A stretch of DNA of 64,000 nt from Bacillus sp. SB49 (GTDB lineage Bacteria > Bacillota > Bacilli > Bacillales > Halobacillaceae), in the NCBI RefSeq assembly GCF_000469135.2, contig NZ_CP048117.1:2641501-2705500 (forward strand), read 5' to 3'. This document shows, piece by piece, positions 8,422 to 55,268 of this stretch. Positions within the stretch are counted from its first letter, which is position 1. Every line of letters begins with the position of its first letter. A program made the translations under genes and the position numbers. Below the pieces are notes generated by a model. It saw only the letters and a program-made list of their open reading frames with translations, searched no databases and was not told where the DNA came from.

Positions 8422-8690
8422 CAATGATAGAAAATAATCTACCACTGCCTCAGCGGCAATTGGATTATCCTCCATTTCGATCAGTAGCGCTCCATGCACC
8501 CAAAAAGCATGCATGACAGTGTATCTCCTGTTCAGATGTACACCAGCGTTAAACAGCCCGACTCGCTGTCTTACACTTCGGCAGACACCCCCTTCACCAA
8601 TGATCCTCGCTTGTCATACTCCCATTGACTACTCATGATGTCTGCGCCTCTACCTCACCGATCTGATAAGGTCACGCATATTCAGTTCTT
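8422..8690 (-). promoter_or_regulatory. Lysine riboswitch (L-box) leader with expression platform
   Basis: Read on the minus strand, the leader shows lysine-aptamer landmarks in order: GGTAGAGGCGC (P1 5' side), TCATGAGTA, GGGGGTGTCTGCCGAAGTG, AGTCGGGCTG, CGCTGG, and GGAGCGCTACTG closing P1. The aptamer spans about 8658 to 8480. Downstream, ATAATC-CA-ATTGCC pairs with GGCAGT-GGTA-GATTAT to form a terminator-like hairpin followed by TTTTC. Family knowledge: lysine binding favours termination. The controlled gene is the NhaC-type transporter starting at 8342. GCTACTG of P1 can also pair with CAGTAGC at 8387-8393, a possible alternative fold. Confidence 0.92.
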
Positions 8691-20724: not shown

Positions 20725-20894
20725 CAAAAAAAGCGCTTCTCTGTTCAGGAGAACAGAAAAGCGCACATCTATTGTATTCGCTCTGTTCTCTCATCTCCCA
20801 GAATTATAACTCTGCAGGATTTGGCACCTTGTCAAGCGTACGCTTGCCGGTTGCCGGGCATCATAGGGCCAGTCCCTCCGCCTCTCTGGATAAG
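20725..20894 (-). promoter_or_regulatory. SAM-I riboswitch (S-box) with intrinsic terminator
   Basis: The minus strand carries the SAM-I core in order: CTTATCCAGAGAGGCGGAGG, GACTGGCCC, ATGATGCCCGGCAACC, GGTGCCAAATCC, and the P1 closing strand TTCTGG pairing with CCAGAG. The terminator is a 14-bp hairpin, GCGCTTTTCTGTTC with GAACAGAGAAGCGC, followed by seven T (20725-20764). GAGAACAGAGCG just before it can pair with the terminator 5' arm as anti-terminator. SAM binding should switch off metNPQ. Confidence 0.96.
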
Positions 20895-20937
20895 AGATTC
20901 GCTTATTCGCATGTATAATTTTAATAGCACAAGATGG

Positions 20938-30409: not shown

Positions 30410-30673
30410 ATGCAACAGCAGCAACAGAATCAATCCATTCAACAGGCGCAGCCGATGACGCAGGTACCTGATATTGTCTCTACGAAGGATCAGCTGTATT
30501 TAGCGGACATGCTTTCCTGGAATTTAAACGCAAGTAAGAAAGCACACTTCTTCGCCCAAAATTGTCAGACACCTGAAGTTCAGGCTGCCCTTGAAGCTGC
30601 AGGTCAAATGCACCAACGACATTACGATAAATTATTAAACCATCTGAATGCCCCTAAACAAAACTTGAACTAA
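30410..30673 (+). CDS. CotF-like spore coat protein (short)
   Basis: An 87-residue protein: a Gln-rich N terminus, then a single helical hairpin (STKDQLYLADMLSWNLNASK, then KKAHFFAQNCQTPEVQAAL) as in coat F family members. Position matches yusN of B. subtilis. It probably forms a pair with the next gene (11 nt apart), and both would act in the spore coat. The ATG follows AAAGGAGGATGATGTAG. Confidence 0.75.
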   Translation: MQQQQQNQSIQQAQPMTQVPDIVSTKDQLYLADMLSWNLNASKKAHFFAQNCQTPEVQAALEAAGQMHQRHYDKLLNHLNAPKQNLN

Positions 30674-30684
30674 GGAGGACCAAG

Positions 30685-31014
30685 ATGAACCAGTCTCAAA
30701 AGATTCAAAACCCGGAAACAAATGTCCCAAAGACGCCGCAGATGAATGAAAGAGATTTCCTGAACGATCAATTAACCACCGAAAAGTATATGACTTCTTC
30801 TTATAATGTCGCTTTGAACGAAGCAAGCAATCAAAACCTTTATCAGGACTTAGCTACGATTTTCAAAGAGACACAGGACTGCCAGCGCAACTTGTATAAC
30901 CTGATGTTTCAAAATGGCTGGTATGCTGTCGAACAGGCGGAACAACAAAAAGTTCAGCAGACCTATCAACAGTTCAATGGATACAAAAATCAACTTCCTT
31001 ACAATGTACAGTAA
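30685..31014 (+). CDS. CotF-family spore coat protein
   Basis: A 109-residue CotF-domain protein: MNERDFLNDQLTTEKYMTSS, YNVALNEASNQNLYQDLATI, FKETQDCQRNLYNLMFQNGW. Two long helices and a Gln/Tyr-rich tail fit a structural coat component. It is paralogous in layout to the previous gene and starts behind AAGGAGG. A terminator shared with the convergent metal-binding protein gene follows. Confidence 0.82.
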   Translation: MNQSQKIQNPETNVPKTPQMNERDFLNDQLTTEKYMTSSYNVALNEASNQNLYQDLATIFKETQDCQRNLYNLMFQNGWYAVEQAEQQKVQQTYQQFNGYKNQLPYNVQ

Positions 31015-31049: not shown

Positions 31050-31256
31050 TTATCCTACTGCTTCATATCCTTGCGCTCTCACAGCTTCTTTCATCAGTCC
31101 TTTTGAAACATATGCTTCGTCGTAAGCGATATGAACTTTTCCACTCTCAAGAAGCACCTCGACACCGTGCACCCCCTCTAACGTCTGAAGAGCGTCTTTT
31201 ACCGATTCCCTGCACTTCTCACAAGACATTCCATTCACTTCCAAAGTCAATTCCAT
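31050..31256 (-). CDS. HMA-domain copper chaperone (CopZ-like)
   Basis: A 68-residue ferredoxin-fold heavy-metal-associated domain. The metal site is MSCEKC (C11 and C14 approximately, in LEVNGMSCEKCRESV). It probably carries Cu(I). No CopA ATPase or CsoR repressor gene is adjacent, unlike the usual copZ-copA operon. The ATG at 31256 follows GGAGGAGTTTTC; the longer frame is not supported. Confidence 0.83.
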   Translation of the reverse strand: MELTLEVNGMSCEKCRESVKDALQTLEGVHGVEVLLESGKVHIAYDEAYVSKGLMKEAVRAQGYEAVG

Positions 31257-31324
31257 GAAAACTCCTCCTTCACTTTCTCTATGCTGGTCCATTCCACAAG
31301 GAAGGAAAAATATAACATAAAAAA

Positions 31325-31347
31325 AGCATTCCTATCTTAGGAACGCT
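31325..31347 (-). terminator. Terminator of the B12/STAS operon
   Basis: AGC-A-TTCCT (31325-31333) pairs with AGGAA-C-GCT (31339-31347), with an A run on the left giving the U tract on the minus strand. It touches the STAS gene stop codon. Confidence 0.7.
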
Positions 31348-32111
31348 CATTTCACACAGTATTTTTGTACAGCTTGCTGCAGGGAGTTCATATATTTGAT
31401 ACTCGAAGGGAAGTGCTGCATCTGAAAACTTTGTGCCTGGACAGGCTGCATCCCTATAATCATAACTTCTGCCCCCATATAAAGAAGGGATATCATGATG
31501 TTCTTCAGTAGACCCGCGCCCTCCAGCTCCATTTCTCCAACAGCTGTAAAATCAAACAAAACACGATCGATATCAGACTTTTGCGCAGCCTTTAATATAG
31601 ACGTTTCCACCGAATACATTTTCTCTGCGGTGATATCTCCGAATAACGGCACTAGTGCGGTGTCCGCTGTAAGGCGGATGAAAGGGGCTGACAATTGGTT
31701 GCTGTTTTCAATAGCATCTTCTAACTTTTCTTTCTCTTCCAACAGCTCGAAGTTGGTATCGTTTAAACGTGACCGGAGCTGATCCAGTGTTTTGGTCACC
31801 TTGGACAACTGTTCATCTTTCGTCAGAATAAGTACTTCCGCATACATGTCATTCTCCCATTTCACATGCATGTCACATGTTTGCGGATTCCCTTGACCAT
31901 CCTCCGGCTTTAAGTGGACTTCCAAGGATAATTTCTGAACTTCCGGAGTTACCCAGTTCTTCACCTTTGGTACACTTGCCTCATCTAATAATTCAAGCAG
32001 GTTTTCCTGTCTCCCAAAAGCCTGTTCCGCTTCTTTGGAATACGATTGGACGAAGTAGTTTTTATTAATAATGAAATAAGGGAGTGGGAATGTACGTTCA
32101 ACTTGTTTCAT
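31347..32111 (-). CDS. PAS-like/STAS domain protein (RsbR/YtvA-like)
   Basis: A 254-residue cytoplasmic protein. Residues 1-97 look like a PAS-type sensor (YFIINKNYFVQSYSKEAEQA). A charged coiled segment (98-138, QLRSRLNDTNFELLEEKEKL) leads to a STAS domain (140-254: TALVPLFGDITAEKMYSVET, VLFDFTAVGEMELEGAGLL, EVMIIGMQPVQAQSF). This is the layout of stressosome RsbR paralogues. At the position of the phosphorylated Thr of RsbR (IDTMV) it reads EMELE (193-197), so, like YtvA, it lacks the phospho-acceptor. It overlaps the cobalamin-binding gene by 14 nt. Confidence 0.75.
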   Translation of the reverse strand: MKQVERTFPLPYFIINKNYFVQSYSKEAEQAFGRQENLLELLDEASVPKVKNWVTPEVQKLSLEVHLKPEDGQGNPQTCDMHVKWENDMYAEVLILTKDEQLSKVTKTLDQLRSRLNDTNFELLEEKEKLEDAIENSNQLSAPFIRLTADTALVPLFGDITAEKMYSVETSILKAAQKSDIDRVLFDFTAVGEMELEGAGLLKNIMISLLYMGAEVMIIGMQPVQAQSFQMQHFPSSIKYMNSLQQAVQKYCVK

Positions 32112-32766
32112 TTATTGCTTCATCCCTTCCCTCTTTAAACCATTGGTTCAAGTGATTCAAGTCTTTGATTACCATAGACTGATCCGACTCCAGCTGGCTC
32201 AGGTCATATTTGCCGGCCATCCGTCCACCGATCATAATAAATGGTTTCCAATCCAACATAGTGAAATGGTTGACCAGATCCTTAATGGCTGGCAGACGAT
32301 AAGACAAGGCTGCAGATATACCGATTACATCCGGGCGATACTTTTCTATTTGGACTAGAGCGTGCTGCAGAGACAAATTCGGCCCAAGATACCGGACACG
32401 CCAACCATGTTCCTTAAACGTCTCAGCGACCATTTTCAAACCTATGTAATGATGTTCTTCTTCCACACCAAATAACAGGGCTTTATATTTCTTATTTCTA
32501 TATTTCTTATCGGTCTTCTTTTCCTGTTCCAATTTAGATAAGACGAAATCACAAATAGCCGTTGCCAAATGTTCATCCGCAACAGATATTTCATTTCGCT
32601 CCCATAGTTCACCGATATAGTACATAGCGGGTGTCAAAATGTCTTCATACAAATATGCCCGGGGGTGTTCCTCTAACAATTGCCTTATATATTGCAACGC
32701 TCCCTCTTCATCTCCATCAAGGAAATAATGGGCCAGTCGCTCATGATGCAGTTCCAAACTGTTCAC
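32098..32766 (-). CDS. Cobalamin-binding sensor protein (CarH-like B12 module without DNA-binding domain)
   Basis: A 222-residue B12-binding protein. Residues 1-85 form a four-helix bundle with the Wx9EH motif (W55, E65, H66) that covers adenosylcobalamin in CarH photoreceptors. Residues ~92-215 are the Rossmann-like cobalamin domain with ExHxxG (E104, H106, G109; H106 is the expected lower Co ligand), S151 and GG at 180-181. No MerR DNA-binding domain is present. The residue after W55 is Glu, whereas T. thermophilus CarH has the light-state His there (as I recall). ATGA overlap with the gene before and 14-nt overlap with the STAS gene after. Confidence 0.8.
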   Translation of the reverse strand: MNSLELHHERLAHYFLDGDEEGALQYIRQLLEEHPRAYLYEDILTPAMYYIGELWERNEISVADEHLATAICDFVLSKLEQEKKTDKKYRNKKYKALLFGVEEEHHYIGLKMVAETFKEHGWRVRYLGPNLSLQHALVQIEKYRPDVIGISAALSYRLPAIKDLVNHFTMLDWKPFIMIGGRMAGKYDLSQLESDQSMVIKDLNHLNQWFKEGRDEAINETS

Positions 32767-33131
32767 CTCTCCGTAAGGATATCCAAATGCTGTAAAGCCT
32801 GCTGCAAATATTCTATATAGTGCTCTTTCTGCTCCTTATCATCTACTTCCATTGCTTCAAGGAGCCGTATCAGTCTCTCAAAATTATCTATGATCAACGC
32901 TGTAGGGACCTGTCTGGATGTGAGGACGTTATTTAACCAGGAGGTATAGTCAAGGAAGAAATGGACACTATCCATTTCATACGCTGCTTGGAGGTGATCC
33001 AAATGATGATGGTTGTCCTCTTCTGTTCTTTCCCGGCCGTTCTGGCCGAACTTCTCCCACAAATAAGGATAAGCTTCATAAATTTCATCGGTAACTTTTC
33101 GAGCAAGCCGGTTCTGCTCTTCCGGATTCAT
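32763..33131 (-). CDS. Unknown helical protein of the B12/STAS operon
   Basis: A 122-residue, acidic, all-helical protein with a His-rich patch (DNHHHLDHL, about 40-48) followed by AAYEMDSVHFFLDYTSWL and ALIIDNFERLIRLLEAM. No family recognised with confidence; the pattern resembles N-terminal helical sensor domains found before B12-binding or RsbR-type modules. Its ATG overlaps the stop of the ABM gene (ATGA), and its stop overlaps the start of the B12 gene (ATGA), so it is part of the same functional unit. Confidence 0.65.
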   Translation of the reverse strand: MNPEEQNRLARKVTDEIYEAYPYLWEKFGQNGRERTEEDNHHHLDHLQAAYEMDSVHFFLDYTSWLNNVLTSRQVPTALIIDNFERLIRLLEAMEVDDKEQKEHYIEYLQQALQHLDILTER

Positions 33132-33433
33132 GTCGCAACCACCTCATATTTCGTGACTTTAGGTACAATCCCCTGCAGTTCTTCGTCCGGGTATTTCTTC
33201 TCCAGCTCGTGGATTTTTCTGAACTGCTCGCTGCGCACCCATTCCAAATATGCCGCTTTTGATTCCCATTCCATGTGTACCGTTAACTCACCAGGCTTGC
33301 GGTCATTCTGAAGGAGTTGAAAAGACAAAAATCCTTCCGCTTCATCTACAAGCCTCGAGCGCTTTCGGTATATATTAATTAAATCTTCCGCCTTATGTTC
33401 TGGAACTACAACCATGGAATCCACTACATACAT
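33128..33433 (-). CDS. Antibiotic biosynthesis monooxygenase (ABM) domain protein, HmoA-like
   Basis: A 101-residue ferredoxin-like ABM domain (MYVVDSMVVVPEHKAEDLIN, FLSFQLLQNDRKPGELTVHM, EWESKAAYLEWVRSEQFRKI). Small cytoplasmic ABM proteins of this length include heme-degrading HmoA/HmoB/IsdG and other cofactor-free oxygenases. A heme ligand His cannot be assigned securely. It is the first gene of the overlapping operon with the helical, B12-binding and STAS proteins, so a link with tetrapyrrole chemistry or sensing is possible (inference). GGGGAA precedes the ATG; no clear promoter seen in the AT-rich 33434-33560. Confidence 0.72.
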   Translation of the reverse strand: MYVVDSMVVVPEHKAEDLINIYRKRSRLVDEAEGFLSFQLLQNDRKPGELTVHMEWESKAAYLEWVRSEQFRKIHELEKKYPDEELQGIVPKVTKYEVVAT

Positions 33434-33563: not shown

Positions 33564-33593
33564 AAAAGTGCCTGGGTTCAACCAGGCACTTTT
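33564..33593 (-). terminator. Terminator of the aeRF1-type factor gene
   Basis: AAAAGTGCCTGG (33564-33575) pairs with CCAGGCACTTTT (33582-33593). Confidence 0.85.
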
Positions 33594-33598
33594 ACTAT

Positions 33599-34408
33599 TC
33601 AGGATGGAACGACTTCTTTAATGACATGCGTCTCTTCATGATCAAGAAGATTCTTGTTTACCATATCATCGGCCGATTTGTTCATATTGTCCTGCAGATC
33701 TTTCAATTCTTCTTTATGGCCGACTAAATACAATCGTTCCCATTCATAATCTTTTGCGAGTTTATCAAGCTTGGGTGCTACACTCTTATACCATCGGTAG
33801 CGATTTGCTTCAAACCGCTCCTGGAACTCATCCTTCTTGGATGATTTCGCTCCGCCTTTACCCATGGAAGGCTGAGCCTGGTGCGGCCCCTGGTGCTGGC
33901 GCCAATCTTCCGTATCGAGATCCAGTTCAAACAGCTGGGTATCTTTCAACATTCCAAGCTCTGCATCGATTAATTTGATCTGATTCTTTTGAGTCAAAAC
34001 GATTCCTGTTTTCGGGAATTTATCCTTCATTTCCTTCAACTGTTCCAGACGCGGCGTTTCCTCCCAATAGAACTCTGTCTTTACGGGCATTTGAAAGCGT
34101 TCAGCGAACCATATCGTATCATCACCTGTAGCGAAAAGAACGACGCTTTTTGCGAAATTTTGTTCGTTTTCCTCGATAAATTGTTGGACTTTCTCTTTGA
34201 CCGCCCAAAAATTCCTTTTCTCATCAGAATCCCCGTCTTCCTGAAGATAGGATTCGAAGTTGTTCAGACCGTTCTTAAGATGGATCTTCCACTCTCCACC
34301 TTGCTGCTCGGGATCGGAAGGATCGGTGTTTAAGTACATCGTAAAAACTTTTTCCGGTTTTTCTAAATGAATAGCTTCTAATTTTTTTAGTTCTTTATTC
34401 AAATTCAT
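33599..34408 (-). CDS. VLRF1-family bacterial aeRF1-type release factor protein
   Basis: A 269-residue soluble protein resembling the bacterial archaeo-eukaryotic release factor (baeRF/VLRF1) group: an N-terminal strand with VFTMYLNTDPSDPEQQGG, an acidic middle region, then the eRF1 domain 2-like part with RYRWYKSVAPKLDKLAKDY and RLYLVGHKEELKDLQ. The Vms1/VLRF1 group hydrolyses peptidyl-tRNA on stalled ribosomes; the loop before RFEANRYRWYKS is in the place of the GGQ-like loop and contains GGA. Activity is not shown. Monocistronic, with its own terminator. Confidence 0.7.
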   Translation of the reverse strand: MNLNKELKKLEAIHLEKPEKVFTMYLNTDPSDPEQQGGEWKIHLKNGLNNFESYLQEDGDSDEKRNFWAVKEKVQQFIEENEQNFAKSVVLFATGDDTIWFAERFQMPVKTEFYWEETPRLEQLKEMKDKFPKTGIVLTQKNQIKLIDAELGMLKDTQLFELDLDTEDWRQHQGPHQAQPSMGKGGAKSSKKDEFQERFEANRYRWYKSVAPKLDKLAKDYEWERLYLVGHKEELKDLQDNMNKSADDMVNKNLLDHEETHVIKEVVPS

Positions 34409-54890: not shown

Positions 54891-54913
54891 CCACCAATAG
54901 TATGTATTGGTGG
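54891..54913 (-). terminator. Terminator of ssrA overlapping the tmRNA 3' end
   Basis: In the transcript CCACCAATA pairs perfectly with TATTGGTGG around a 5-nt loop, followed by TTTTTTT. The 5' arm begins with the tmRNA terminal CCACCA, so the mature 3' end is released from inside the stem. Confidence 0.8.
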
Positions 54914-55268
54914 AGACGGTGGGAGTCGAACCCACGTCCGGAGATATCGGCACTCGGGCTTCTACGGGCGTAGTTGATATATTATCATTCACTACCTCTT
55001 CGGCCTATCAACAGGCTTCCGAGGAGCTAGCCTGATTAGTCTCTTCGTCTCTCCTCAGGCGGTGGAGAAACGCGTAGCCCACTTCAGTTTGAGACCCTTC
55101 ATCCAGCACATGGGCGATGCCGGGAAGGATCAGCTATAGACTACTTACGCAGCTACAGCTAGGTTTTGTTTAGATTCGCCAGTTATTATAGGCAAATGAC
55201 GGTTTACGAGACGTCGCTCGACTCGCGACCCGAGCTCGACCTATCCCCGTCGAATCCGTAACGTCCCC
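54908..55268 (-). ncRNA. ssrA: tmRNA (ssrA)
   Basis: A 361-nt transfer-messenger RNA. The 5' end GGGGACG pairs with CGTCTCC before the encoded CCA 3' end (7-bp acceptor). ACGGATTCGACGGGG and GTGGGTTCGACTCCCAC (T arm) are present. The tag frame reads GGC GAA TCT AAA CAA AAC CTA GCT GTA GCT GCG TAA, giving the tag (A)GESKQNLAVAA, short for a bacillus but with the usual degradation end. It rescues stalled ribosomes with SmpB, whose gene is directly upstream, as in B. subtilis. Confidence 0.95.

Follow-up and report, generated by a model that had tools for sequence, protein, structure and literature searches.

A conserved four-gene operon of Bacilli as a probable split photocobilin with a stressosome-type output

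A light-sensing bundle of photoglobin and B12 protein that feeds signal transduction was reportedly proposed by Schneider et al. in 2022 for the photoglobins. The closest described systems are the photocobilins, represented by SasPcob (PDB 8J2W/8J2X) and AbDPcob (8J2Y), which combine a CarH-type B12 domain and a bilin-type globin in one chain, SasPcob being predicted by its authors to contact STAS/PP2C proteins (PMC10979010, Zhang et al. 2024), and the globin, B12-protein and heme oxygenase sets of Myxococcales (BBAG-2), in which separate globin and B12 genes are tied to bilin synthesis and the globin has been shown experimentally to bind biliverdin (PMC10151467, PNAS 2023). In a 64,000-nucleotide stretch of Bacillus sp. 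SB49, a salt-tolerant member of Halobacillus (contig NZ_CP048117.1, positions 2,641,501 to 2,705,500; hereafter the window), four overlapping genes encode an ABM-fold protein, a predicted bilin-type globin (HEL), a B12 protein and an output protein with a STAS domain (table 1), which together probably form a split photocobilin with the stressosome as its output.

The unit carries the B12 motifs of photocobilins and, as a separate protein, their bilin-type globin. It would work like a photocobilin, yet it is not classed as one because the single chain is lacking: globin and B12 protein are two genes, here as in the 76 complete named clusters, and they are accompanied by genes for ABM and for a PAS-like-STAS output protein. 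The separation of the globin and B12 genes recalls the Myxococcales sets; the latter, however, contain heme oxygenase proteins, in some cases with a bilin reductase, where an ABM protein is found here, and the excerpts of PMC10151467 make no mention of a STAS partner. A preliminary description of this DNA had stated that no characterized system of such a composition was known to its author. For the four genes together this stands, no description of the combination in Bacilli having been found among the titles, abstracts and passages of open-licence papers, but photocobilins and the Myxococcales sets are close precedents. A photocobilin divided over several genes, with a stressosome output, is the interpretation with the best support.

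Table 1. Position of the four genes and of the flanking hairpins in the window.
Feature	Position	Strand	Assignment	Basis
ABM-fold protein, 101 amino acids	33128..33433	-	candidate bilin-making heme oxygenase	open reading frame list, Pfam ABM
HEL, predicted five-helix bilin-type globin, 122 amino acids, photoglobin-like	32763..33131	-		fold by sequence and model
B12 protein, 222 amino acids	32098..32766	-	helical cap and Rossmann B12 domain	Pfam, PDB relatives
Output (STAS) protein, 254 amino acids	31347..32111	-	PAS-like adaptor ~1-97, linker helix 98-139, stressosome-type STAS ~143-254	
Terminator-like hairpin of the upstream gene, separating the four-gene unit from that gene	33564..33593	-		consensus scan
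Terminator-like hairpin ending the four-gene unit	31324..31348	-		consensus scan

All four reading frames were found on the minus strand where the preliminary description had placed them (31347-33433). Of the overlaps it had listed, those between ABM and HEL (4 nucleotides, ATGA) and between the B12 and STAS genes (14 nucleotides) are present, while the 4-nucleotide overlap of HEL and the B12 gene reads GTGA, with a GTG start, and not ATGA. The co-occurrence check that it had proposed gave a positive answer: by a domain-based count, the order ABM-HEL-B12-STAS is kept in 76 of 80 named genome loci, which, being the best-matching of 334, are biased toward close relatives; one further locus has the same order with the B12 gene in pieces, and three contain B12-STAS only. 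Since the order is kept in 76 of the 80, the four-gene arrangement is not due to chance.

The B12 protein matches Pfam B12-binding_2 (1.3e-17) and B12-binding (7.8e-15), with no other domain above cut-off in its 222 residues, and Pfam found no MerR-type DNA-binding domain, in agreement with the earlier statement that none is present; the NCBIfam CarH model gives 55 versus 400 bits. The motifs W55-x9-E65-H66 and E104-x-H106-xx-G109, with E56 after W55, lie at exactly the residues first reported, and W55, E65, H66, H106 and G109 are invariant across 40 aligned sequences, that of the window included. The protein had been called CarH-like, which holds for the B12 domain and the adenosyl-pocket residues that it shares with CarH/LitR, but both the DNA-binding domain and the His following the Trp of the latter are missing, and the nearest solved relative is SasPcob (1.6e-16), followed by the putative cobalamin-binding protein 8jbs (5.4e-14) and AbPcob (3.7e-11), with CarH chains behind them (4.9e-11 and weaker; 5c8a, 5.8e-11). 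A direct CarH-to-STAS interpretation was put aside on this ranking. W55, E65-H66 and H106 align with SasPcob Trp61, Glu71-His72 and His108 at equal spacing, so that photocobilin pocket residues are shared. Glu after W55, which had been suggested as a possible cause of different photochemistry, is indeed present, and His occurs at this position in none of 53 relatives (Glu in 43, Gln in 6), but no special explanation is needed, as SasPcob has Gln after its adenosine-facing Trp and, in the light state, a water/hydroxide ligand rather than bis-His ligation (PMC10979010). His135 aligns with SasPcob His137, described in the same source as contacting the bilin from the opposite monomer, and, of the 53 relatives, 20 have His and 21 have Tyr there.

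The second gene had been described simply as a helical protein, which missed its nature, as sequence and model indicate a bilin-type globin that would bind its pigment as a separate protein. HEL has no Pfam family above cut-off, all its Pfam matches being below; the 50 database matches listed bear titles such as photocobilin, smURFP, 'bacterial fluorescent protein' and phycobiliprotein/phycobilisome. Pairwise alignment by hhalign with the globin piece of SasPcob gives a probability of 88.5, although the database searches carry more weight. An ordinary helical dimerization or phosphotransfer protein was put aside given those 50 matches, as was, more tentatively, a heme globin, haemoglobin-type chains ranking lower in the Foldseek list and no conserved His being found in the helix that follows the long one.

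The pocket points in the same direction. In SasPcob, rings A-C of the bilin are anchored by Asp270, and ring D is packed against Trp296, according to PMC10979010, the numbering of which equals the chain index plus 6; after this six-residue shift, HEL Asp39 and Trp65 align with them, and the His of AbPcob falls in the Asp39 column. Asp39 is found in 48 and Trp65 in all 52 of 52 distinct HEL sequences, and both in 77 of 77 distinct HEL from the 80 named loci. At the position of the phycobiliprotein CXRD and photoglobin CXQD motifs, as given in PMC10151467, HEL has, as a rule, [CT]xED (TEED in the window), which resembles the photoglobin motif, while the RGMC motif of BBAG-2 given there is absent. 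Because the residue at the phycobiliprotein Cys site, position 36, is Cys in 26 of 52 HEL (Thr in 23, including Thr36 of the window), some relatives might hold a bilin covalently. Three HEL paralogues (L063, L070, L076) have neither an ABM neighbour nor Asp39; two of their genomes give no B12 match at E<=1e-5 and the third only a 1162-residue frame, so these paralogues are possibly pigment-free descendants.

The ABM protein matches Pfam ABM (PF03992, 3.8e-16), the fold of IsdG-type heme oxygenases; among NCBIfam models, that of the heme-degrading HmuQ scores best but stays short of its cut-off (47.7 versus 130 bits), and IsdG is among its solved relatives (8.7e-5). The early suggestion of a link to heme/tetrapyrrole turnover thus gains support, in that the nearest families are heme-degrading. 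The same protein is the weak link of a split photocobilin and weighs against it: the IsdG-type Trp65 and His75 are present, but Ser6 stands in place of Asn in the Asn-Trp-His triad that, by the account excerpted from PMC5557675, functionally characterized IsdG-type enzymes need. This is a trait of the subfamily (Ser6 in 43, Trp65 in 42 and His75 in 45 of 46 relatives), which may be either active with Ser, or form a different product, or handle a bilin without making it. No canonical heme oxygenase that could supply biliverdin was detected in the genome (PF01126, E<=0.001). The genome has five ABM genes, so that the ABM of the operon is not the sole candidate bilin source.

The incomplete triad would also suit a sensor that uses B12 alone, adenosylcobalamin sensing green/blue light and HEL being a structural or docking globin without bilin, as proposed for the poorly biliverdin-binding AbDPcob. 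In the excerpt of PMC10979010, AbPcob retains its globin despite His for Asp270, poor biliverdin binding and an occupancy of ~20%, and His43 is lost in five of the seven HEL homologues from outside the order to which the strain belongs. Such a sensor is nevertheless unlikely in view of the conservation of Asp39 and Trp65, which extends to all seven of these homologues, and of the tie between pocket and enzyme. ABM adjoins HEL in 49 of 54 distinct HEL (fetched loci); the four HEL of 52 that lack Asp39 have no intact ABM neighbour, whereas 43 of the 48 with Asp39 do (intact being E<1e-30, a threshold chosen after looking), an association that reflects few independent events, as a single genus supplies three of the four.

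Less probable again is a tetrapyrrole or redox sensor that reports heme breakdown products, oxygen or adenosylcobalamin status to the stress network with no role for light. Heme and oxygen are the substrates of ABM enzymes, and B12 domains have non-photic roles as well, but the invariance of Trp55 and Glu65-His66, residues of the CarH/photocobilin adenosyl pocket, and the fact that the nearest solved relatives of both HEL and the B12 protein are photoreceptors argue for light.

That HEL and the B12 protein belong together, as a split photocobilin demands, is borne out across genomes. In a sample of 199 genomes of the order (B12 at E<=1e-25, HEL at E<=0.01), the B12 gene occurs in 82, HEL in 79 and both in 70, where they lie <=2.5 kb apart on one strand in 44 and are unlinked in 26. 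Linkage accounts for part of this co-occurrence; when linked genomes are excluded, HEL is still found in 26 of 38 genomes with B12 versus 9 of 117 without (25 of 37 versus 9 of 117 without G146, where the two genes are near each other but on different strands), and therefore two modules, ABM-HEL and B12-partner, can be distinguished, which are joined in Halobacillus and many others and separate in about two dozen genomes. Among the nine HEL genomes with no B12 match at 1e-25, three (G053, G169, G171) carry a B12 gene of this kind that is broken or scores lower, and five of the other six, those whose HEL locus was examined (G085 being left out), show no intact ABM alongside.

Fusions point to the same partnership. 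Among 299 genomes of the phylum, a profile search detected HEL in nine, seven of them outside the order, and in six of these seven HEL and B12 form one chain of 358-363 residues, globin first, with an ABM gene directly upstream in one case; in the seventh, a group II intron-type reverse-transcriptase/maturase gene lies between the HEL and B12 genes (L227, 5095-8040). In the B12-protein tree, which has long branches (MetH, CarH and two GGDEF-linked rows) and open forks and was used for this grouping only, all fused rows cluster together (96/91). A hybrid histidine kinase gene neighbours the fused gene in two, and a GGDEF protein gene in one, of the four surroundings examined. Least probable of the alternatives is a heme-recycling pair of ABM and HEL, the latter carrying off the product, whose operon happens also to contain a B12-STAS sensor of independent function: it would fit the 26 of 70 genomes in which the pairs are unlinked, but not the persistent co-occurrence of unlinked modules, the HEL-B12 fusions in other Bacillota, or the weak or broken B12 genes and missing intact ABM of the apparent exceptions.

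The fourth protein provides the output of the proposed split photocobilin. Its STAS domain (Pfam, 2.6e-10) follows a linker helix, as in YtvA and RsbR-type stressosome proteins, and its best fold match is the Listeria innocua stressosome. The N-terminal part is strand-rich and unlike the globin-like domain of RsbR; residues ~1-97 appear PAS-like from secondary structure and weak Pfam matches (PAS_9 in 2 of 30 relatives, best 2.8e-4), the fold match barely covering residues 1-96. A LOV domain was not found, the NCBIfam YtvA model giving 51.5 versus 250 bits with a match at 125-248 only. The EMELE motif noted previously begins at residue 193, and the conserved phospho-Thr of RsbR is absent, Leu and Ser replacing the two Thr of the RsbR-like protein of the same genome at positions taken from B. 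subtilis RsbRA. Thus the protein differs from YtvA and RsbR by having neither LOV domain nor fused globin, and by its changed phospho-Thr positions.

The adjacency of a stressosome-type STAS partner to the B12 gene is conserved, and the idea of B12 sensing with a STAS output is supported, with the reservation that the PAS-like adaptor carries a histidine kinase or GGDEF domain instead of STAS in some relatives. The adaptor adjoins the B12 gene in 122 of 124 cases, a count skewed by the use of B12 to fetch most of the loci. By a fairer count, among the matches in the partner list (E<=1e-20), 25 of 95 B12 stretches have no adjacent partner; these include short partners (L088, L090, L098), the two halves of one broken gene (G006) and stretches with none nearby (L029, L043, L045).

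RsbT, searched with the protein of the own genome (E<=1e-25), is present in 155 of the 199 genomes, namely in 60 of 60 with a STAS partner versus 95 of 139 others, a comparison that is descriptive and ignores kinship. The only B12 genomes without it (G063, G153, G178) all belong to family f19 and have the kinase form of the partner. In 12 of 12 B12-positive genomes of families f46 and f20, cluster and rsbT share a strand and are 6.7-8.6 kb apart, and in the four loci mapped (L211, L212, L214, L228) ABM-HEL-B12-STAS stands 4.7-6.2 kb upstream of rsbRSTUVW-sigB. G115 has a second rsbS-rsbT pair ~6 kb from the cluster (L213, 12699-13510), possibly a dedicated stressosome, besides another rsbT copy elsewhere. 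In Bacillus sp. SB49 the cluster is far from rsbRST; from sequence likeness we take its genome to encode rsbRST-, rsbU-, rsbV-, rsbW- and sigB-like genes, and presumably also an RsbR-like protein (L006), a YtvA-like LOV-STAS protein (L016) and a separate CarH-like MerR-B12 protein (L003). With the latter two and the operon, this one Halobacillus would have three candidate photoreceptor systems.

A sequence of events can be proposed for the split photocobilin. ABM would oxidize heme to an open-chain bilin, which free-standing HEL would hold via Asp39 and Trp65. The B12 protein would bind adenosylcobalamin base-off via His106; Trp55 would cover the adenosyl group, and Glu65-His66 would contact it from across the dimer, the arrangement found in CarH and photocobilin. 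HEL is envisaged, from the fusions and the precedent of the fused SasPcob globin, to dock on the B12 protein, whereupon absorption by either pigment may break the Co-C bond and change the B12 dimer. Gene adjacency suggests that the partner protein receives this change through its PAS-like adaptor, and the co-occurrence of RsbT that the STAS domain would operate within, or act on, the RsbR/RsbS/RsbT stressosome and thence, in whichever direction, on SigB.

A bolder generalization, which we regard as possible but doubtful, is a modular two-pigment receptor in Bacilli, in which ABM makes a staphylobilin- or mycobilin-like bilin, the free globin carries it to the B12 protein, and the two together control any output joined to one dedicated PAS-like adaptor: STAS for the SigB stressosome, a histidine kinase where the stressosome is missing and GGDEF elsewhere. 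We know of no photoreceptor with such a bilin, and the ABM gene raises the question of whether non-canonical bilins serve as photoreceptor pigments. If the split photocobilin is real, many Bacilli, as the B12 gene count in the order suggests, would couple green and red light to their general stress response by a route distinct from the LOV protein YtvA. The 'photoglobin' idea would gain a natural test in two genes that can be expressed separately and then mixed, and the adaptor, on which STAS, kinase and GGDEF replace one another, would offer a ready-made connector for optogenetics with red/green light in Gram-positive bacteria.

The hairpins of table 1 come from a scan that returned four terminator-like sites in the region versus 2.4 expected. 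No cobalamin riboswitch reached the gathering score of Rfam in the window, the Rfam matches of which, elsewhere on the minus strand, are a lysine riboswitch (8477-8660), a SAM riboswitch (20788-20896) and tmRNA (54908-55268). The product of the upstream gene (33599-34408, minus strand) matches baeRF_family5 (8.5e-52) and is related to ribosome-hibernation factors; of 77 named loci, 28 have a homologue of this gene <=1.5 kb upstream of ABM. Beside the cluster, at 30410-31014 (+) and 31050-31292 (-), there are two small open reading frames resembling Coat F, of which the first scores below cut-off, as well as an HMA metal-binding protein.
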